Shown: positions 4,955-17,523 of the stretch, one piece after another
Numbering within the stretch: the first letter of the stretch is position 1
How the letters are laid out: each line of letters opens with the position of its first letter
NCBI GenBank assembly: GCA_900545715.1
Contig: URAJ01000001.1
Coordinates: forward strand, 1-64,000
Direction: 5' to 3'
DNA: 64,000 nt
DNA from: an uncultured Opitutales bacterium
Lineage (GTDB): Bacteria > Verrucomicrobiota > Verrucomicrobiia > Opitutales > Intestinicryptomonadaceae
Made by a program: the position numbers and the translations under genes
The notes under the pieces: model-generated
Databases searched by the model: none
Seen by the model: only the letters and a program-made list of their open reading frames with translations
Told to the model about the DNA's origin: nothing

Positions 4955-5436
4955 TTCTTCACCTCCAAAACTTTGAATCCTATCGCCATAACTACGGGAT
5001 TCTCCCATTTCATCTCGGGATTGATTTTTTCAAAGTAGTCGAGAAATTCCCGCTTGTTTTCAAAGCCCTCTCTTAGCGCGTCGGCTTCGCTCACATAGCG
5101 CAACAGTTCGCGTTTCAGCTCCGTGATTTCAAGCTGGATTCGCGAAAGGCTACGCGGCATAAAGATTGACGGCTTCCAGAGTGGAAGCTGCGTTTTCTTG
5201 GAACATTCTACGGCGTAATCAAATCCTATTTCCAGCAGATTAGGATCTGTCGCCTGATAAATAATTTTTTTATGCCCATCTTTCCTGGTAGCTACAAGAT
5301 AAGTCTCCCGCACCCATAGCCTGTCGCCAACTTTCCACTTGTCGAAGCGCGGTTTGTAAACACGCCGCGTCATGGTTTTTCGCCCGTCGAGAATAGCCCG
5401 CACCATCGGGCTTGAAAAAAGTATCGGCCTATCCAT
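4951..5436 (-). CDS. ASCH/PUA-like domain phage protein
   Basis: 161 residues from [20 protein letters not shown]. This opening, followed by TMTRRVYKP and the [13 protein letters not shown] segment, is the usual signature of phage ASCH-domain proteins, a PUA-like beta-barrel fold thought to bind RNA or modified nucleotides. The C-terminal half contains a helical stretch ([18 protein letters not shown]) and ends at an ATGA overlap with the next gene. Start chosen at the ATG within the pentapeptide gene's end (8-bp overlap); upstream codons are antecedent coding. The biochemical role in phages is not established. Confidence 0.75.
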
Positions 5437-6181
5437 TTTGCGCTTTCTCCTCATTCGCCGCCGCGACTGCTTTAAAGAAAGCAATCGCCGCTTCATATTC
5501 CTTTCGATAAACGTTATTTTCATCGGGGTAAGTTTCGCGGATTTTCGCGACCCACTCTTCAAAAGTTCCACGGAAGCACCCGCACCACACCATATTTTTT
5601 GTGGCGTTGTAGATCGTGCCACGTTTCCTGGAGCCTATGCGGTCGACGCAAATGACATGTCCGTCAATATAAGCGTACCTTATGTCCGCGGTATCTACGC
5701 CGTTTAGATCTACGCCATAAAGTCTTGCGTAGGCAAGGTTTGCACTATTTAGAGATGCGTTTTTCAACTTTGCATTGTCAAGAAGCGCACAAGTTAGATC
5801 CGCAACGTCAAGGTTTGCCCAAGATAAGTTTGCGTTGCGAAGATCCGCCTGGGCAAGATGCGCTTTGAAAAGTCTCGCACGGAAAAGATTTACGCCATTA
5901 AGATTTGCATCGAATAGATCTGCTCGGTCGAGATTTACGCCCATTAGATTTGCCCCGCGAAGGTCTGCACGCCATAGTTCTGCTCTACTTAGATTTGCGC
6001 AGCTTAGGCCTGCTCCGCGAAGGTCTGCATTGCTTAGGTCTGCCCAGCGAAGGTCTGCGTTGCTTAGGTTTGCTCCGCGAAGATCTCCTTGGGAAAAGTC
6101 CGCGCGCCGTCCATCCCCATAGCCTTTAAGCCAACGCTCGTGCAAGCGCAAAACTTTTTTTAAATCAATACTCTCGTCCAT
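5429..6181 (-). CDS. Pentapeptide-repeat protein
   Basis: 250 residues. About residues 25-160 consist of A(D/N)LxX repeats (for example [20 protein letters not shown]), which fold as a right-handed quadrilateral beta-helix. The C-terminal part ([20 protein letters not shown] and onward) is the module commonly joined to such repeats in phage proteins. In other systems pentapeptide proteins mimic DNA (gyrase protection), but no evidence favours that here. Start taken at the ATG at 6181 with AAAGGCG upstream; it overlaps the previous gene by 17 bp. The repetitive antisense strand yields spurious serine/arginine-rich frames. Confidence 0.85.
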
Positions 6182-6422
6182 CGCCTTTTCTTTCGTTTTC
6201 CACCCAGCATTCCCATCCGCTGCCGTCGGACTTCTTGCGGGAATGTCCCGCAAGTCCGAGCGTTCGCGCGGCGAGATAAAAAGCCTTTACGTCGGAAGGA
6301 CTGCCGAAAAGCACGGACTCCTCCGCGTCTCGGCACGATTTCACAATCTCGGCCATTTTCTCGGCCGCCGTTATTTTCGGCGACGGCAGCGGAGAGCGCG
6401 CCACATTGTCAAAACGGAACAT
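6165..6422 (-). CDS. Hypothetical phage protein (85 aa)
   Basis: ATG at 6422 is preceded by a purine-rich GGAGGGGAGG and overlaps the 3' end of ssb by 14 bp. The product begins MFRFDNVARSPLPSPKITAA, has a helical middle (DAEESVLFGSPSDVKAFYLA) and a charged tail. It overlaps the pentapeptide gene start. No family recognised; overlaps and RBS support a real gene. Confidence 0.7.
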   Translation of the reverse strand: MFRFDNVARSPLPSPKITAAEKMAEIVKSCRDAEESVLFGSPSDVKAFYLAARTLGLAGHSRKKSDGSGWECWVENERKGDGREY

Positions 6423-6798
6423 ATCCGGCCTCCCCTCCTTCGGACGGCTCCGCCCTTCCCCGCGCCGCGCGCTCCTCGTCTATTGGCGGCGGTCCCTCGC
6501 GCCTCGCCCCGCCGACAAATTGCGCGCGGATTACATCGCAATACGTATGCGAAAGCTTGTCTTTCTCCGAAACGTATTGCGACAATTCGCCCACGACGTA
6601 AATCGGCGAACCCTTTTGCAAAAACTTGCATATATTTTCCGCGGTTTCGCGGTATGCCCTGCACCATAGGAAAGTCGTGTCGTTTTCGCGGAAGCCGTTG
6701 CATGCCACGGTAAACGAGCACGTCGCGACGCCGTTTTTCGTCTGCTCCAAAACGGGCGTTTTCGTGAGATTGCCGAGGGCGTGGACGGACGGCTTCAT
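6409..6798 (-). CDS. ssb: Single-stranded DNA-binding protein
   Basis: 129 residues with an OB fold: NLTKTPVLEQTKNGVATCSF, then FLWCRAYRETAENICKFLQK and GSPIYVVGELSQY match the bacterial/phage SSB core. After residue 100 comes a Pro/Glu/Arg-rich linker and a short tail ending YVPF. This resembles the acidic DxxPF tip that binds partner proteins, but the terminal Asp residues are absent and it is less acidic, so host interactions may differ. It coats single strands during phage replication; the gene lies just after the primase-helicase. ATGA overlap with the upstream small gene. Confidence 0.9.
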   Translation of the reverse strand: MKPSVHALGNLTKTPVLEQTKNGVATCSFTVACNGFRENDTTFLWCRAYRETAENICKFLQKGSPIYVVGELSQYVSEKDKLSHTYCDVIRAQFVGGARREGPPPIDEERAARGRAEPSEGGEAGYVPF

Positions 6799-7010
6799 TT
6801 CGCGTCCTCCTTTCTCCCGTAATGGCTGAACAGCACGGCTTCGGCTACTTCCCGAACCTCCACCTCCACGCCGCGCAGTTCCTCATACCGCCCCGTTTCA
6901 GCATTCCACTCAACGGGGATCAAATCCGCGGCAAGCAGGCGCGCCGTCGGCAAATCGCAGTTGTTCCTCCTCAACAAAAAGAGGCTGTCTCCTATTTTAA
7001 TCTCTATCAT
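6795..7010 (-). CDS. Hypothetical phage protein (71 aa)
   Basis: Short acidic beta-rich protein starting MIEIKIGDSLFLLRRNNCDL, with AAAGGA before its ATG and an ATGA overlap with ssb. It lies between the primase-helicase and ssb genes. No family recognised. Confidence 0.65.
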   Translation of the reverse strand: MIEIKIGDSLFLLRRNNCDLPTARLLAADLIPVEWNAETGRYEELRGVEVEVREVAEAVLFSHYGRKEDAK

Positions 7011-7028
7011 TGCATTTTCCTTTGTTGG

Positions 7029-8990
7029 TTAAAGTTCCGCAAAATCCGGATCCCCCTGCACAAACGCGCGCACCGGCTTGTCGGGCGCGTCCCTGAACTG
7101 CCTGCTCGGCAGGTCGAACCATAGGTTTTTTGCCGGCAGCCTACCCGTGCCCTCGCGCTGTTTTCGCACGTACATCACCGCGTCGTGCAGCTGTTTTACC
7201 TTGTCGTATTGCTCCCAGTCCCCCTCCGCGCGCAAAGCCTCCATGTCCATTTCCTTTTTGACGGTGCGGTATATCACGACCACGTTGTGCGCCAAATCGG
7301 TAATGTGCGCAGAGCCGTTTACATCGTGCTTCCCCGGCGGATCCTTGTCTTCGCGCCTTTTTTCGCTCGGCTTTTTCGAGTGCGCCACCAGAAACAGATG
7401 GCAGCCGTTTTCCATCACGAAATCGCAGAATTTCTGCATGACGGCCTTTTGACCGTCCTTGTCGTCCTCGCCCACGTCACAACACATAAGGCTGTCGACC
7501 ACGAACAGCTTTGCGCCGTATCTGCGGAAGCAGTAGCGGAAAGTTTTGAGCATGTCGTCCACCCGCGCGCGCCCGACATGGTTGTAGAAAAAAATCCTTT
7601 CGTTCAGCCATGCCACGGCGTTTTCAAACAAATTCGGGACTATGTGCCCGTCGCGCTCGAAGTAGTTTCTGCGCCCCGAGCACTGCCGAAACAGCGTCTC
7701 CATCGTCGAGGGAATCGGGACTTCGAGGCTCGCGATGCACGCCGTCTCCCCCTTGGCGCACAGGTTGACGAGCAAATCGTCGAGCCACGCCGTCTTCCCG
7801 TGTCCGGAATATCCGGAAACCACCGTCACTTCGTAGTCGCGTATCTTGAAGTGGTCGCCCAAGTTCCACGGCAGGGGCCTGCCGGCGGCGGCCGACTTTC
7901 CGTCGAGCCTGTCTTTGAGCTGCTGCGCAAATTGAACGGCCCGCGCGAGCTCCTTCGGGTCCCGCGCCTTGGCCTCCGCTATCGCCTCCATGAGCGGGGC
8001 GACATCCCCGTCGCGCGCTATTTCATTCGGATCCTTGTACGGGGCGGGAATTTCCACGAGCTCCGTCCGCTCTACCCCCAGGCGCTGCATGAGCGTATTC
8101 GCCGCGGCCTTGCCCACGTCGTCGGAATCCATGCAAACCTTTACCGTCTCAAACGGCTCCAACCTCTCCCAATCCGTATTTATCCATTCGTTGGCCTTGT
8201 TTTGCTTGCCGTCGGGCCCGTCCGCGTGCGCGCCCTCCGGCACCGACAGCGCGGGGATCCCGAGCATGGCCACCGTCATCGCGTCGATTTCCCCTTCGCA
8301 TATCACGACTTCCCGCGCCTCGTCGGGCATCGCCTGCCATCCGAAGAGCGCGCAAACTCCGCCCTTTTCCTGCGAGCAGCACTTTTTCCCGTTGGGGCGG
8401 TCGAGCGCCAGATACTTGATGTTCAACAGCTCCGCGTCGTCCCCTTTGCCCGAATATATCGGAAACGCCACCGCGTCCACCTCTTTTCCGAACGCGGCAA
8501 ACCATTTTTTGCACGCCTGTACTCGATACTTTTTGAGGATTTCGGGCGAAAGCAGCCGTTCGCCGCATAAATAGTCGTAGGCGCGCGTCCCCCTCTCGAT
8601 TGGATACAGATGTCTCGTCGATATGTAATCGGGCTTTTTTGACGGCTTTTTGACCCAATAGCGCGGTTCCTGGTTGTCGACTATACCCAGCCAATCTTTC
8701 GCAAAGTTCACCGCTGCGGAAAAACTCAAATCCCGTTGAGCCATCACGATGTCTATGAGCGCCCCCTGTTTTCCGGCATACTTGCCCACGGCGACCGCGG
8801 GGGCTCCGTTCTCCACCCAATACCCGCGCTTCGGCCCGTCCACATAGACGATGAAGCTCCTGCCGCCCTTCTTGTCCAGTATGCTTCCGGTGCGCCAATA
8901 CGCGCCTTCGCGCCTGCCGTTCGGCAAAAACTGCATGCAAAACTGCAAGGCCCTTTCGTTTAACTCCGATGTAATTTCCTTCCAAATCAT
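7029..8990 (-). CDS. Phage primase-helicase (TOPRIM + RecA-like, T7 gp4/Twinkle type)
   Basis: 653 residues. A TOPRIM fold spans about 228-291: VVICEGEIDAMTV supplies the catalytic glutamate and CMDSDD the DxD metal site. The RecA/DnaB-type helicase domain follows, with Walker A SGYSGHGKT (392-400) and Walker B LFVVDS (495-500), then VAHSKKP and VNGSAHITDLAHNV, the usual helicase motif 3/4 area. No Cys4 zinc ribbon is seen at the N-terminus, unlike T7 gp4, so primer synthesis from specific sites may be lost or different. It should unwind the fork on the phage genome. It overlaps the initiator gene by ATGA. Confidence 0.9.
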   Translation of the reverse strand: MIWKEITSELNERALQFCMQFLPNGRREGAYWRTGSILDKKGGRSFIVYVDGPKRGYWVENGAPAVAVGKYAGKQGALIDIVMAQRDLSFSAAVNFAKDWLGIVDNQEPRYWVKKPSKKPDYISTRHLYPIERGTRAYDYLCGERLLSPEILKKYRVQACKKWFAAFGKEVDAVAFPIYSGKGDDAELLNIKYLALDRPNGKKCCSQEKGGVCALFGWQAMPDEAREVVICEGEIDAMTVAMLGIPALSVPEGAHADGPDGKQNKANEWINTDWERLEPFETVKVCMDSDDVGKAAANTLMQRLGVERTELVEIPAPYKDPNEIARDGDVAPLMEAIAEAKARDPKELARAVQFAQQLKDRLDGKSAAAGRPLPWNLGDHFKIRDYEVTVVSGYSGHGKTAWLDDLLVNLCAKGETACIASLEVPIPSTMETLFRQCSGRRNYFERDGHIVPNLFENAVAWLNERIFFYNHVGRARVDDMLKTFRYCFRRYGAKLFVVDSLMCCDVGEDDKDGQKAVMQKFCDFVMENGCHLFLVAHSKKPSEKRREDKDPPGKHDVNGSAHITDLAHNVVVIYRTVKKEMDMEALRAEGDWEQYDKVKQLHDAVMYVRKQREGTGRLPAKNLWFDLPSRQFRDAPDKPVRAFVQGDPDFAEL

Positions 8991-10063
8991 AATTCAACGT
9001 CTCCATACGCCCCGGGAAGGCTGAACCGCCCGCGGGGGCTGTTGTTTTTTTCCGATTTTCCCTGAGCCTCCTTTTTCAGGAAATCTTCCTCGAAAATCCA
9101 ATCCTGCCACTCTTTGCCTATCGCCCTGTCGAAGAGTCCGAGTATTTCCCCCGCCGAAAATCCGGCTTCAAGAGCCCGCCTGACTTGCCTCGCGTGGTAT
9201 TTCGCCCCGTTCTCCGTCTTGAACGGCTTTTTCATCTCGATTCTGGCTACCGCAAATTCGGAGAATTTCGCGCAGAGCTTTTCGGCGTCATTTGCCGAAA
9301 GCCCGCTTCCGCATTCAACCGGCAGCAATTCGCCAAACAGCCGCACGACTTCATTCGACATTCTTTCCGATTTCCTTTGGGGCGAATTGGGTTTCCCGTC
9401 CCCTAAGGGGGGACTTATAGGGGGGATACTATCCTTACTATCCTTACTATCCTTACTATCCTTACTATCCGGTTTCCTGTGGGTTCCCGTTGGGTTTGCG
9501 GTGGGTTCCGTTTGGGCTGCGTCTGGGTTGCCGTTGGGTTTCGAGTGGGTTCCCGTTGGGTTTGTGGTGGGTTCAAAATCGCCGTTTGGGTTTGCGGTGG
9601 GTTCCGTTTGGGTTTCGCGTGGGTTTTGCGTGGGTTTTTTTTCTGGGTTTCCGCTGGGTTTCTTTTCGGTTGCCGTTGGGTTTCCGTTGGGTTTCGAGTG
9701 GGTTTCCGCTGGGTTTGCGGTGGGTTCGGGGCGCGTTTCCTCCGTTTTCGGGCGCCCGCCCTTCGATCCGTTTTTCCAGTTTGCAACCAGCTTGGGATTT
9801 ATCTTTTTGAAGTCGTGGATTTCAATCTCGCCGCCGTTCGTGTCTATGAACCGGTACAGCCTCAATCCGTCGAAAAACTGCCCCGGCTCCCCGTTCCATC
9901 CGGCGACCGCTTCGAGAACGTCGGGCGTGTAGTCAAATACGTACTCCTTGCGCACCTGGCAGTGCGCCCAGAGGCGCAGAAGGCAGAGGACGGCCCCGTC
10001 GCCGCAGTATGCTGTCAACGCCCGCGTCTTCCAATGGTCCGGAAAATCTGTTTCTATTATCAT
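8987..10063 (-). CDS. Phage replication initiator / helicase loader-like protein with low-complexity linker
   Basis: 358 residues directly upstream of the helicase gene. The N-terminal ~100 residues (LRLWAHCQVRKEYVFDYTPD, HDFKKINPKL) look like the winged-helix of phage replisome organisers. Residues about 105-210 are a repetitive linker of TANP, ETHSKPNGNP and four-fold KDS units. The C-terminal ~100 residues (KTENGAKYHARQVRRALEAG; FDRAIGKEWQDWIF) resemble helicase-loader domains of DnaT/O-type proteins. The linker DNA carries iterons (see 9428-9745), as in lambda O, whose gene contains the origin. Function inferred from layout; exact family not proven. Confidence 0.7.
   Translation of the reverse strand: MIIETDFPDHWKTRALTAYCGDGAVLCLLRLWAHCQVRKEYVFDYTPDVLEAVAGWNGEPGQFFDGLRLYRFIDTNGGEIEIHDFKKINPKLVANWKNGSKGGRPKTEETRPEPTANPAETHSKPNGNPTATEKKPSGNPEKKPTQNPRETQTEPTANPNGDFEPTTNPTGTHSKPNGNPDAAQTEPTANPTGTHRKPDSKDSKDSKDSKDSIPPISPPLGDGKPNSPQRKSERMSNEVVRLFGELLPVECGSGLSANDAEKLCAKFSEFAVARIEMKKPFKTENGAKYHARQVRRALEAGFSAGEILGLFDRAIGKEWQDWIFEEDFLKKEAQGKSEKNNSPRGRFSLPGAYGDVEL
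9428..9470. repeat. 9-bp tandem repeat (ACTATCCTT) x 4.8 inside initiator gene
   Basis: Four exact copies of ACTATCCTT at 9428-9463 plus a 7-bp partial copy to 9470. On the coding strand they specify the DSK/KDS run of the initiator. Being a multiple of three they keep the frame. Tandem iterons inside a replication gene suggest an origin; simple slippage of a low-complexity linker is the alternative. Confidence 0.9.
9478..9745. repeat. Degenerate GGGTTTSCGKTGGGTT repeats (linker of initiator gene)
   Basis: About 15 variants of GGGTT(T/C)CCGTTGGGTT, units 9-18 bp, running through the linker coding region. The strand is strongly skewed (G/T on plus, C/A on minus). They encode the TANP/SKPNGNP peptide repeats. 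Together with the 9-bp array they make roughly 320 bp of iteron-like DNA. Confidence 0.8.
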
Positions 10064-10090
10064 GGTTTGAAAAATTGAAAATTTTAAGAG

Positions 10091-10127
10091 CCCCGCGCTC
10101 GGGTAAAAGCGGCTCCGTCGCGCGGGG
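10091..10127 (-). terminator. Hairpin between DUF4406 gene and replication genes (possible attenuator)
   Basis: CCCCGCGC at 10091-10098 pairs with GCGCGGGG at 10120-10127 with a 21-nt loop. In the leftward direction it is followed by CTCTTAAAATTTT rather than a clean T run, so it may act as a weak terminator or attenuator before the initiator gene. Confidence 0.35.
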
Positions 10128-10147
10128 AAGAGAGCACAATCAAAAAT

Positions 10148-10471
10148 TCATTCCGGATAGAACAAAATCCACTTTCCGCCCGCGCGGGCGCTGTCGTGTT
10201 CTATCTTCGCTCCGCGAGATTTCCTCCACCCCGGGAGCATCATTATCGCGTCGCATTTGCAGAGGTCTTTCAGGCACTCTTTGAGAATTGCCTGGTATTC
10301 GTCTTCGCGCATCGGCCTGTCGCCGTTTTCAGCCATCCACTTCCGCGCCCTGTCGGCCGGATTAACAGGACAGTGCCCCAGCTTGAAAATCAGGTCTTCC
10401 GCTTTGTCGAACGCCTCGACGTTAAAATTTTCTATGCCCGTCATCGGGCCCGATATGTATATGTCTTTCAT
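10148..10471 (-). CDS. DUF4406 protein (nucleoside 2-deoxyribosyltransferase-like)
   Basis: 107 residues beginning MKDIYISGPMTGIENFNVEA; YISGPMTG is the start signature of the DUF4406 family, a Rossmann-like relative of nucleoside deoxyribosyltransferases common in phages. AIMMLPGWRKSRGAKIEHD matches the second conserved block (LPGWxxSxGAxxE), where the glutamate is the expected catalytic residue. It may act in nucleotide metabolism or base exchange; no phage substrate is established. ATG with GAGAT upstream, just after the HTH gene. Confidence 0.85.
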   Translation of the reverse strand: MKDIYISGPMTGIENFNVEAFDKAEDLIFKLGHCPVNPADRARKWMAENGDRPMREDEYQAILKECLKDLCKCDAIMMLPGWRKSRGAKIEHDSARAGGKWILFYPE

Positions 10472-10473
10472 TT

Positions 10474-10713
10474 TTATCTCGGGTAAAGTTTAGAGGGGCC
10501 CGTCGTCGCCTTTATGAGGATCCTGTCGAGCGCGTCCCTGTTGTAGTATTTGCTGTTGCCCGTCCTTATGTACGGGATTTTGTGCCTAAGGCGGAACTTC
10601 GTCCACGTTCGCGAAATTTTTATGCCGCAGTAGGCCATGGCCCTTTTGGTGTCCATCAGATAAGGCGCGACGGAAGCCTCGCCCGCCGGATCGCATTGAG
10701 TTGAGTTGCTCAT
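10474..10713 (-). CDS. Excisionase-like helix-turn-helix protein
   Basis: 79 residues. YLMDTKRAMAYCGIKISRTW, TKFRLRHKIPYIRTGNSKYY and NRDALDRIL match the winged-helix layout of MerR/excisionase-type DNA-binding domains (helix, turn, helix, then a wing with R-x-G-N-x-x-Y-Y). It could be the directionality factor for the integrase or an early regulator. ATGA overlap with the small membrane gene upstream. Confidence 0.65.
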   Translation of the reverse strand: MSNSTQCDPAGEASVAPYLMDTKRAMAYCGIKISRTWTKFRLRHKIPYIRTGNSKYYNRDALDRILIKATTGPSKLYPR

Positions 10714-13033: not shown

Positions 13034-13107
13034 GTGTTAAGATGTACCACGTCAAGAAAAAAGTGTTAAGTCTAACCACTTTTTTTTATTTGGCGTAATG
13101 TGTTAAG
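13034..13107. promoter_or_regulatory. Three GTGTTAAG direct repeats between divergent RHH genes
   Basis: GTGTTAAG at 13034-13041, 13063-13070 and 13100-13107, start-to-start distances 29 and 37 bp, all in the same orientation in the 94-bp gap between two divergent RHH genes. Direct half-sites on the same face are typical for RHH operators. Likely the early control region of the prophage. Confidence 0.65.
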
Positions 13108-13123
13108 TTTTAATACTGCTTTT

Positions 13124-13324
13124 ATGAAAGATGAAAAAAAGCTGTTAATTACGCATACCGTTCGCGTCACTGAAGATTTAGAGAAAGAGCTAAGTAGCGT
13201 TTCGCGCATTTTAGATATGCCCAAACAGGAGACAATCCGCCTCTGTCTGCGCATAGGCCTTACCCACCTGCGCCGCGTGAAGTACGACCTCGCCGCCTGC
13301 GTCCTCGAAAAGTCGGAAAAATAG
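13124..13324 (+). CDS. Ribbon-helix-helix regulator, divergent partner
   Basis: 66 residues, MKDEKKLLITHTVRVTEDLE then DMPKQETIRLCLRIGLTHLR: an RHH domain closely parallel to the protein encoded at 12799-13029 (ITQTIRISEELE ... KQTAIRLALREGIEGVRR). No clear ribosome binding site. It is the only rightward gene in this control zone, so the pair could be opposing switches of the lysogeny decision. Confidence 0.75.
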   Translation: MKDEKKLLITHTVRVTEDLEKELSSVSRILDMPKQETIRLCLRIGLTHLRRVKYDLAACVLEKSEK

Positions 13325-13340
13325 CCTCCGGCGCAGTTGG

Positions 13341-13553
13341 TCATCTGGCTTCCTCCGTAGAAACGCCGGTTTCAACCGTTTCTTTCCGTTCGCCCTTTTC
13401 CGCCTCCGCCCGAGCCTTCCGCGCGTCCAACGCCTCTCTTATAAGAGTTCTTACGGCCTGCGATTGATTGTAGCTCACGGCTCTTATCTCCGGCATCCAC
13501 GATACCGGAACGTTCGATATGTTCAAATATGTCGTTAACTCATCCATTAGCAT
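13341..13553 (-). CDS. Small RHH-like protein
   Basis: 70 residues. LNISNVPVSWMPEIRAVSYN and QSQAVRTLIREALDARKA fit an RHH domain (short strand, helix, N-cap, helix), followed by an acidic tail. An operator-like GGTTTAATAAACC lies three bases upstream of its start codon, so initiation would be blocked when the site is bound. Start could also be the ATG at 13547. Confidence 0.6.
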   Translation of the reverse strand: MLMDELTTYLNISNVPVSWMPEIRAVSYNQSQAVRTLIREALDARKARAEAEKGERKETVETGVSTEEAR

Positions 13554-13603
13554 AAGGTTTAATAAACCATTGGGTCTTTTTATTTATATTTCAAATTGTG
13601 ATT

Positions 13604-13816
13604 CTATTTCCTGTGTACGCCAATAGGTTTATTAAACCCTTTGACGAATTTCTCCAGCCCTTCTTTCACCAGATCATCGAGAGAACGATTTTCCTTTTTA
13701 ATAATCTCAAAAAGAGAGTTAAACGTCTTCGAGGATATTTCAAATTCTATCCTCACAAGGTTTATTAAACCTCTTTTTTGAGAGTTATTCTTTCTTGTGC
13801 GTTTTTTTGTTTTCAT
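13604..13816 (-). CDS. Small RHH-like protein containing two operator sites in its coding sequence
   Basis: 70 residues: a basic N-terminal arm (MKTKKRTRKNNSQKRG), then LVRIEFEISSKTFNSLFEII and NRSLDDLVKEGLEKFVKGF, an RHH-like strand-helix-helix. Its start lies within the 3' end of the upstream RHH gene (32-bp overlap, different frame). Two GGTTTATTAAACC sites lie in its frame near both ends, at 13759 and 13626. Confidence 0.6.
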   Translation of the reverse strand: MKTKKRTRKNNSQKRGLINLVRIEFEISSKTFNSLFEIIKKENRSLDDLVKEGLEKFVKGFNKPIGVHRK

Positions 13817-13964
13817 ATTCAGCTACAAGTTTTTCCATGGCCAATCGAAGGGCTTCTGTAAAAGACATACCTTGTTCATTTGCGATTGCTTTGACGCGAC
13901 GCACAAGTTTCTTTTCTTGTGAGGAAGAAATACGTTGCTTGGTATCTGACAATTTATTCGGCAT
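13785..13964 (-). CDS. Small RHH/CopG-like protein (59 aa)
   Basis: ATG at 13964 with GGAG five bases upstream; TAA at 13785-13787. The product MPNKLSDTKQRISSSQEKKL, then VRRVKAIANEQGMSFTEALR and LAMEKLVAEY, has the spacing of an RHH domain. It is the first gene of a leftward pair with the 13604-13816 gene. An operator site (13994-14006) lies 30 bp upstream beside a TTGACT -35-like box (minus strand, 14013-14008). Confidence 0.65.
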   Translation of the reverse strand: MPNKLSDTKQRISSSQEKKLVRRVKAIANEQGMSFTEALRLAMEKLVAEYENKKTHKKE

Positions 13965-14092
13965 ATCTCCATACTGTGAAGATAGACCAAAAAGGTTTAA
14001 TAAACCAAGTCAATAAAAATTTTTTATTTTTTTATTTTTTTTATAAAAAAAAGGTGGAAAATTCGCCCATCACATGGTCTAATACAAACACA

Positions 14093-14284
14093 ATGAATGC
14101 CAATACACCCACAAGAAAGCCTCACAAGCCGCTTGTCAACTACGTTCCCGCAGACAGAATCCGCCGAATAGTTGCATTGCGCTCTCGCGGAAATATAAAT
14201 CTGCAACGCGGAGCTTATAGCACATCTGCCGACATCGAAAAAAGACGTGAAAAGATTGCAAAATATGATTTTTCACGATTCTAA
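14093..14284 (+). CDS. Small basic protein (63 aa), phage cargo
   Basis: MNANTPTRKPHKPLVNYVPA followed by DRIRRIVALRSRGNINLQRG and a charged tail. The longer upstream frame reads through AT-rich non-coding DNA, so the ATG at 14093 is chosen. It overlaps the next gene's start by 20 bp, suggesting coupling. No family recognised; lower GC than the phage core. Confidence 0.5.
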   Translation: MNANTPTRKPHKPLVNYVPADRIRRIVALRSRGNINLQRGAYSTSADIEKRREKIAKYDFSRF

Positions 14285-14861: not shown

Positions 14862-14891
14862 AAAAACGGAAGACCCCGAAATACTCCGAAA
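14862..14891. repeat. 30-bp exact direct repeat, copy 1
   Basis: Thirty bases (AAAAACGGAAGACCCCGAAA, then TACTCCGAAA) identical to 16159-16188, spaced 1297 bp. It follows the stop of the membrane-protein gene by six bases. Confidence 0.95.
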
Positions 14892-15671: not shown

Positions 15672-15766
15672 CACTTTTTTTAAAAAAATGAAAAAAGTTG
15701 TAAAACCGCCAGCTTATTCATTTTAATAAAAAGTGTGATAGAAACATTAAAGGCGGAAGGGTTGAT

Positions 15767-16097
15767 ATGACGAACACGATAAAATACAAGGGGTATACGG
15801 GAAGCGTTGAAATATCGGAAGAGGACAACTGCCTTTTCGGCAAGGTGCTTTTTATTCGTTCGCTGCTATCCTACGAAGGGTGGACGCTCGAAGAAATAAA
15901 AAAAAGACTTCAAGGACGCAGTAGACGATTACTTGCAACTTTGTGAAGAAAATGGAGTCGAGCCCGAAAAGCCGTTTAAAGGGTCGTTCAATGTGCGCGT
16001 GCGGCCGGAGGTTCATCGCGGGCTTGCAATAGCGGCGGCAAAGCGCGGCGAGAGCCTGAATAAATACGTTTCCGAAATACTTAACAGCGCGATTTAA
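15767..16097 (+). pseudogene. HicB-family antitoxin, one-base frameshift in an A8 run, no HicA partner
   Basis: ATG 15767 has GGCGGAAGGG upstream. Frame 1 reads MTNTIKYKGYTGSVEISEED, NCLFGKVLFIRSLLSYEG and on to EEIKK; there the run of eight A (15898-15905) puts translation out of frame and it stops early. The frame one base further on continues DFKDAVDDYLQLCEENGVEP, EKPFKGSFNVRVRPEVHRGL and SLNKYVSEILNSAI, exactly the HicB C-terminal half with its RHH-like domain. Joining at A7 restores a full-length 109-residue HicB. No HicA toxin is present upstream. Transcript slippage on A8 could restore some product. Confidence 0.75.
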
Positions 16098-16158
16098 TGC
16101 GAGTTAAGCTTTTGGAAATTCATGCCTTGCGCTGTTTAGCTTCCGCAAGTTTTCGACA

Positions 16159-16188
16159 AAAAACGGAAGACCCCGAAATACTCCGAAA
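16159..16188. repeat. 30-bp exact direct repeat, copy 2
   Basis: Identical to 14862-14891. Here it is followed by TCTTCCG, making a CGGAAGA...TCTTCCG inverted repeat. It lies 70 bp from the 3' end of the integrase gene, the place where attP sits in lambda-like phages, so it may be an attachment core. Confidence 0.95.
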
Positions 16189-16258
16189 TCTTCCGCCGAC
16201 TGAGATTCCCCAGTCCAATTTTCCGTATTTAGCGGAATTTTTCTTCAAAAAATCAAGC

Positions 16259-17446
16259 CTATTGAGGCGCAATCTCAAAATACTTTTGGGCGACGCTCTT
16301 TTCAACGAGAGAGCCAAAATACCTGTTCACCAGTATTTGCGGGGAATTTCTTGTGATTCTCGCGGTCCTCGCGGGATCGTAGTAAAGGCTTAAATGGTAG
16401 GTTGAAAACGACCGGCGCGCAAAGTTGTACGGCAGGCGGACGACGTTTTTTGAGAGCATAGCCCGTTCGTCGCCGGAGGGGCGGATTATTTTTGCATTTT
16501 TATATTTTTCGAGCCATTCCCAGAGATTCTCCGGCAAATTTTCGAGCGTCCATGCCTTTTTCACTTTGCCTATTTGCGCCGGAAAAGTAATTTTCCTGTC
16601 TTCGTACCGGAAGTACTCGTCCCGCAGTCGGGGGATTTCCGCCACTCTTATGCCGGCGAAAAGCCCCAGCGCATAGAAACGCGCATAGAGGGGGCGCTCT
16701 TTTTCGATAAATTCCATGAATGTCCGCGTGTCCCCGACGCTCAAAAATTCGATTTTGCGTTCAATATTCGCCTGTTCGCCGCCTATCGGCGCGTATTCGT
16801 CGGGGTGGATTTTGTCCATCGGATTGGCCGAGAACGCCCCGCGCATTATGCAATACTTGTAAAATTCTCCGATTGTCCCGCGCCAGTGGGCGATGGTCTT
16901 GGGCGCCCCCTTGTCCCTGATCCATTCGAGCAGCTTTCTCGGGGTGGCGTCCGCGAAGGATGGGAAAGTCTTTTTGAAGTTTCTGATGCGCCCGCAGACC
17001 TGCCCGAACTCCACGTCGCAAAGGTTGCCGGCGGCGTGCTTTGCGGTTTTCATCGCAATGAAGTCGTCGGCGAGCGTTTCGACCGACATCGCGCTTTCGT
17101 ATTGCCAGGCGGTTTTTACGGATTCCACAAGGGTTTTTCCTGGCGGCAAAAGGCTTAAAGCTTCCCGCATATCCTCCAAAACCGCGGCTGGGTATTGAGC
17201 GAAGTCGGAAATTTCAAATTTGCGGGAATCGAGAATGTTTTTCCGATAGAACAGCGCGTCCGATTTCAGCCTGAAAAACCTCCTCGAAACCTTTTTCGTC
17301 TTTGGATCCCTAAACCCGACACACCAGTATTCGATGCCGTTTTTCTTGACCCTGTAAAGATTTTTTATTTTCTGGCTTGGCGTACCTGAAATAGCTTCCG
17401 AATTGTCTGCTCCCACAGACGCGGCATTGCAATTATCTGCGGACAA
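16259..17446 (-). CDS. Tyrosine-type site-specific integrase with altered catalytic motifs
   Basis: 395 residues from a TTG at 17446 (no better start seen). An N-terminal SAM-like core-binding part (about 120-215) precedes the catalytic domain: GLFAGIRVAEIPRL (Arg267), GKVKKAW (Lys about 294), NFARRSFSTYHLSLYYDPAR (Arg344) and VNRYFGSLV (nucleophile Tyr376). In related Verrucomicrobia-type integrases the motif before the tyrosine reads LGHxSPQ; here it is TRNSPQ, so the His/Trp position is Asn367 and the usual HxLRH is YNFARR. It may still cut DNA, with lower activity, or be a decaying copy. It lies at the prophage end beside the host. Confidence 0.8.
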   Translation of the reverse strand: MSADNCNAASVGADNSEAISGTPSQKIKNLYRVKKNGIEYWCVGFRDPKTKKVSRRFFRLKSDALFYRKNILDSRKFEISDFAQYPAAVLEDMREALSLLPPGKTLVESVKTAWQYESAMSVETLADDFIAMKTAKHAAGNLCDVEFGQVCGRIRNFKKTFPSFADATPRKLLEWIRDKGAPKTIAHWRGTIGEFYKYCIMRGAFSANPMDKIHPDEYAPIGGEQANIERKIEFLSVGDTRTFMEFIEKERPLYARFYALGLFAGIRVAEIPRLRDEYFRYEDRKITFPAQIGKVKKAWTLENLPENLWEWLEKYKNAKIIRPSGDERAMLSKNVVRLPYNFARRSFSTYHLSLYYDPARTARITRNSPQILVNRYFGSLVEKSVAQKYFEIAPQ

Positions 17447-17523
17447 AGGGGGGAGTTTTCATCGGGTGTTAAAAATTTGCCTTACATGGAAGTTTTTGCG
17501 CGCATTCCGCAGGTTCATTAATT

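Follow-up and report, generated by a model that had tools for sequence, protein, structure and literature searches.

In the 64,000-nucleotide stretch of DNA analysed here (an uncultured Opitutales bacterium, contig URAJ01000001.1, positions 1 to 64,000; hereafter the window), a single 13-bp sequence occurs four times among three consecutive small minus-strand genes, named A, B and C, located between positions 14006 and 13341. This arrangement raises the question of which protein would recognise such sites, and why two of them should be located within coding sequence. The comparisons described below indicate that gene A probably encodes an antitoxin-type ribbon-helix-helix (RHH) autorepressor, of which the four GGTTTAWTAAACC palindromes are the predicted operators. 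The sites and genes concerned are the following:

13994 to 14006: site 4, GGTTTAATAAACC on the plus strand, upstream of gene A and right behind a minus-strand TTGACT; proposed operator of A
13785 to 13964, minus strand: gene A, 59 aa, putative antitoxin-type RHH protein and proposed binder of all four sites
13759 to 13771: site 3, encoding GLINL in the frame of gene B; putative auxiliary operator
13604 to 13816, minus strand: gene B, 70 aa, possibly RHH, sharing 32 bp with the end of A; sites 2 and 3 are part of its reading frame
13626 to 13638: site 2, encoding GFNKP in the frame of gene B; putative auxiliary operator
13556 to 13568: site 1, 2 nt ahead of the ATG of gene C; proposed operator of C
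13341 to 13553, minus strand: gene C, 70 aa, no fold assignment

Four identical palindromes in a cluster of small genes

The four exact matches to GGTTTAWTAAACC in the window are spaced by 70, 133 and 235 bp from one site to the next, and no additional site with up to two mismatches was found in the 64 kb. The sequence-only reading that had drawn attention to this locus was correct with regard to the number, identity and coordinates of the repeats, as well as in placing two of them near promoters or start codons (13994 before A, 13556 before C) and two in the codons of the 70-aa gene B; its description of them as near-palindromes has to be amended, each being a perfect odd palindrome with 6-bp arms and an A/T centre, extended to 15 bp at 13759. 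In 2000 dinucleotide shuffles of the region 13300-14100, the commonest 13-mer was present once in 1801 shuffles, twice in 197, three times in two and four times in none. Site 4 begins 42 bp ahead of the gene A ATG, and site 1 is preceded by a TTGAAA located 26 nt upstream; no TTG was observed within 40 nt upstream of sites 3 and 2. A second short motif, ATATTTCAAATT, is present twice in the cluster (13586 and 13735), probably by chance.

Protein A and the MPNQL family

Protein A scores 14 bits against Pfam RHH_1, under the cut-off of 20.5 bits, and its structure model consists of two helices (predicted local distance difference test score 82.3), the weak fold matches of which are often RHH chains, with HU scoring higher. 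A sequence search of the PDB with A, B and C gave no convincing match. A protein search retrieved only three B-type and ten A-type proteins. A profile of A had matches in 6 of 384 genomes at class level (E-value up to 1e-3); at order level it had them in 11 of 372 (up to 0.01), and at phylum level in 3 of 387 (up to 1e-4), with genome G001 in every set. Among the loci read, proteins starting with MPN or MPD were encountered, besides a Puniceicoccaceae copy of the cluster discussed below, at L007, L010, L012, L013 and L020, and a profile built from three MPN/MPD proteins produced matches in 21 of the 372 order genomes.

In a profile comparison with the N-termini of 17 members of this MPNQL-starting family, protein A was aligned over 54 residues (96.6%, E-value 5.5e-10). 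A hidden Markov model (HMM) of the family assigned 24.5 bits to A, against a maximum of 13.4 bits among 2872 scored shuffles of A, and one family member exceeds the RHH_1 cut-off (23.3 versus 20.5 bits). These comparisons establish homology between protein A and the N-terminal domain in the MPNQL-starting RHH family, so that A shares its DNA-binding domain with autorepressors of the antitoxin type. It lacks the C-terminal half of its relatives, which are 125-133 aa in length.

Palindromes in front of the relatives of gene A

Four of the five loci named above contain a GGT-N7-ACC palindrome directly before the gene (GGTTGAATCAACC, GGTGTCTGACACC, GGTTGAATAAACC and GGTTGATTCAACC), and none was found within the 120 bp examined at 11 other loci. 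Among open-licence PubMed Central papers, GGTTTAATAAACC, GGTTTATTAAACC and GGTTGAATCAACC are absent, and GGTTGATTCAACC is present in one plant paper.

All 18 full-length MPNQL genes, which were retrieved via the protein and not via the site, are preceded by a GGTTG-N3/4-AACC palindrome that ends 4-11 nt ahead of the start codon; it is exactly GGTTGAWTCAACC in 13 cases and a one-base variant thereof in the other five, the consensus over 17 sites being AGGTTGAWTCAACCTTT. Perfect arms were present within 60 bp upstream in 12 of 17 scored MPNQL stretches versus 3.8% of control stretches. A TTG is located 24-26 nt upstream of the palindrome in 16 of the 18 sites, a distance that would put the palindrome over the -10 box of a standard promoter. 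Exact copies of GGTTGAWTCAACC are found at 15 places in 14 of the 18 genomes, 13 of them being the operator of the family gene itself and two being located at unrelated open reading frames (ORFs), which suggests that the MPNQL family regulates mainly itself. Considering that A resembles the family by HMM and profile, and that the window site resembles the family operator, protein and operator point to the same family independently. Moreover, the layout of site 1 resembles that of the MPNQL sites (TTG 26 nt upstream, and a gap to the ATG of 2 nt versus 4-11 nt), which makes a separate promoter for C, controlled by A, probable.

We infer from these sequence features that A would bind site 4 before its own gene and site 1 over the start of C, and would by such binding repress itself and C; being located just past TTGACT, site 4 could block the promoter of A. 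Sites 2 and 3, within B and in the same transcription unit, would then serve as auxiliary operators by means of a roadblock or looping.

A nucleotidyltransferase-like partner gene

In 15 of the 18 loci (L012, L063-L065, L067-L075, L077 and L078) the MPNQL gene is directly followed by a gene of ~245 aa with GGQAVNLWA and then SRDVD motifs, which makes these loci look like toxin-antitoxin operons. By eye, we take the partner to be a nucleotidyltransferase of the kind present in toxin-antitoxin pairs; four copies scanned matched no Pfam or NCBIfam family, two copies scanned no PADLOC model, and one copy scanned nothing convincing in the PDB. It is possible that the MPNQL RHH protein and its nucleotidyltransferase-like partner constitute an undescribed toxin-antitoxin pair. 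In the window, no nucleotidyltransferase-like gene follows A, and searches of Pfam and NCBIfam, and for B also of PADLOC, gave no toxin family for B or C. The window cluster is without a recognisable toxin and is not classed as a toxin-antitoxin system.

Coding copies of the site in gene B

In gene B the site is spelled out twice in frame, once where GLINL is encoded (residues 16-20) and once where GFNKP is (residues 60-64). The sequence-only reading had asked whether these copies keep the DNA palindrome beyond codon needs, and both indeed exceed what the peptides require: with the peptides fixed, the synonymous-codon chance of obtaining both is ~2e-5 with 14 large ORFs of the window as the codon-usage reference, or 1.5e-4 with five element genes. 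A B-type protein that is 77% identical to B and known as protein only (P0003) differs at two residues touching the sites, L20H and G60R. An intact site is compatible with both changes, given that every His codon has C in first position and that GG closes two of the Arg codons, although this compatibility is no more than suggestive.

A close copy of the cluster on a mobile element

A scan of genome contigs for B, performed with two peptide patterns only, so that more distant B genes may escape it, retrieved a single locus (L001), in Puniceicoccaceae bacterium Marseille-Q1082. Window positions 13405-14041 are 97.6% identical to this locus, the similarity stopping inside gene C at 13405, and a block containing the integrase (15725-17459) is 94.9% identical; beyond these blocks only a 30-bp piece of the window is matched in the 20 kb compared. 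As the similarity is confined to these blocks, the cluster is a mosaic piece of a mobile element, whose integrase is located as follows:

16259 to 17446, minus strand: integrase of the tyrosine-recombinase type; element context, outside the regulatory unit

The L001 copy is chromosomal, and in the region 5284-10624 the element is flanked by an N-terminal part of an aldo/keto reductase gene on one side and by a C-terminal part on the other. In our reading, the regulatory unit is carried by a Puniceicoccaceae integrative element. The 2.7-Mb genome of L001 contains all four sites and none elsewhere; the site is absent from 18 other Puniceicoccaceae genomes. With ~1 change per 52 bases expected, retention of the sites in L001 is no test of them. 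Nine substitutions fall in the frames of A, B and C (end of C excluded; codon positions assigned by hand), seven of them at third positions and two altering B, and the N-terminal part of C is changed at third positions only; this bias supports the view that A, B and C are real proteins.

A perfect 30-bp direct repeat (14862-14891 and 16159-16188), matched in L001 at 7329-7358, flanks a NadS-like helix-turn-helix gene and a HicB gene, and may mark cargo exchange. The HicB-type gene (15767-16097) is represented by two overlapping frames in the window versus a single 109-aa frame in L001.

Searches for further relatives gave little. DNA relatives in plasmids and phages were limited to matches of 33-45 bp; protein A was not found in phages, nor P0012, a relative of A, in plasmids. 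Viral contigs contained no match to B alone, to the A profile or to the A4 profile, and no pair of 13-mers at start-to-start distances of 54-84 and 118-148; the N-terminal part of C found one distant viral locus (L021), which is without the site. Related integrases are present in 86 of the 372 order genomes and in four viral contigs. Six stretches beside the nearest integrases, together with the viral loci, contained no A or B relative and no repeated palindrome of this kind (L026 was searched for proteins only, and L059, L060 and L062 offer less than 2 kb on the flank expected to carry the cluster), and for C these regions yielded just two weak matches (E-values 0.039 and 0.35).

Two additional repeats were observed elsewhere in the window. 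GTGTTAAG occurs three times (13034, 13063 and 13100; region 13034-13107) and has no other copy in the window; it lies between two small RHH-like genes that diverge, at ~13020 (minus strand) and 13124 (plus strand), and looks like a second, separate operator set. GAACTTTCGGGAA is present three times within 38 bp (1345-1382), inside a 555-aa ORF.

Weighing of alternative explanations

Several observations weigh against the assignment of the sites to A. No clear -10 was found for the promoter of gene A, and site 4 is without the promoter spacing of the MPNQL family; GGTTGAWTCAACC and the window site disagree at a single mirrored position. Within the family, 5 of 17 sites match in only five of six arm pairs, a level that 22.9% of controls attain, and L013, which encodes an MPNKL protein, has no such palindrome upstream. 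P0012 does not have the common N-terminus (3.8 bits with the family HMM, non-scoring). Finally, the sole other DNA copy, that of L001, has diverged little, being 97.6% identical.

The main binder could instead be B, C or an A-B heteromer, A alone being insufficient. Two of the sites are carried by gene B itself, and protein B aligns to the A profile in the RHH register (43%, E-value 2.4e-4), with a weak Phage_DsbA match (E-value 0.0074); its structure model consists of helices only (score 75.8) and has no match in the PDB. The family HMM, however, gives non-scoring values for B (5.9 bits) and C (3.1 bits), and at the 18 MPNQL loci the palindrome stands ahead of an A homologue, followed in 15 by the nucleotidyltransferase-like gene and not by a B-like one, so that this explanation is considered unlikely. 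Of the three RHH proteins assumed in the sequence-only reading, A is well supported, B weakly, and C is not demonstrated to be one.

It is rather improbable that the palindromes act as small RNA hairpins (GGUUU-AWU-AAACC) steering translation or processing. All four hairpins would lie on the A-B-C strand, and site 1 abuts the ATG of C, but a search of Rfam returned no match, the stem is weak by inspection, and, judging from the TTG spacing seen in 16 of 18 relatives, the palindrome and the -10 box would overlap, leaving part of the palindrome outside the transcript.

As RHH proteins and repeated sites are also features of ParG/Omega systems, the sequence-only reading had proposed either a partition-like set of centromere-like sites or a compact autoregulatory switch. 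The former has very little probability: besides the integrase, the L001 element (6019-10413) has no fully listed ORF above 198 aa on either strand, and thus none of ATPase size; no ParA match was obtained among the window proteins scanned, which represent part of the ORFs; the spacing is irregular, the L001 copy lies in a chromosome, and the relatives of A, with a single promoter site each, are predicted autorepressors in antitoxin position. The autoregulatory proposal gained support from the near-identical palindrome at the promoters of distant A relatives, and from the confinement of the site to the cluster in the one whole genome found with it. Chance repeats, which might be suspected in an AT-rich region with long A/T runs, are hardly credible given the shuffles and the similar palindrome before 18 of 18 homologues.

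Comparison with known systems

RHH antitoxins of the RelB, ParD, VapB and MazE6 types repress their own promoter in type II toxin-antitoxin operons. The A-B-C unit is comparable in that a small RHH protein would have, by sequence, a palindromic operator at its own promoter (site 4, and 18 of 18 relatives), and in that its MPNQL relatives precede a nucleotidyltransferase-like gene; it differs in having no recognisable toxin after A, in the missing C-terminal half of A, and in having four predicted operators, two of which are coding, where those operons have one. CopG of plasmid pMV158 is a free-standing RHH repressor with a 13-bp pseudosymmetric operator. Unlike in CopG-type copy control, no replication gene belongs to the A-B-C unit, C being the last gene on its strand and its neighbour (13100-13324) convergent; there are four sites, and the closer sequence relatives of A are antitoxin-like. 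Auxiliary operators inside coding sequence are known from lacZ and galE, which likewise have repressor sites in the coding part of the controlled unit; here the repressor would be an RHH protein, and two identical coding sites occur in one 70-codon gene.

Tentatively, and with less confidence than the assignment of the operators to A, it may be envisaged that the toxin and the C-terminal half were lost, and that a single ancestral operator became four, two of which were overprinted in the gene of a second small DNA-binding protein, constraining its sequence and leaving the mobile element with a self-contained switch that works by looping or a roadblock. Through the predicted operators, a cluster that so far lacked annotation would be linked to a family of repressors whose 13-bp operator is predictable, and it may provide a clean case for why a repressor retains operators within coding sequence.
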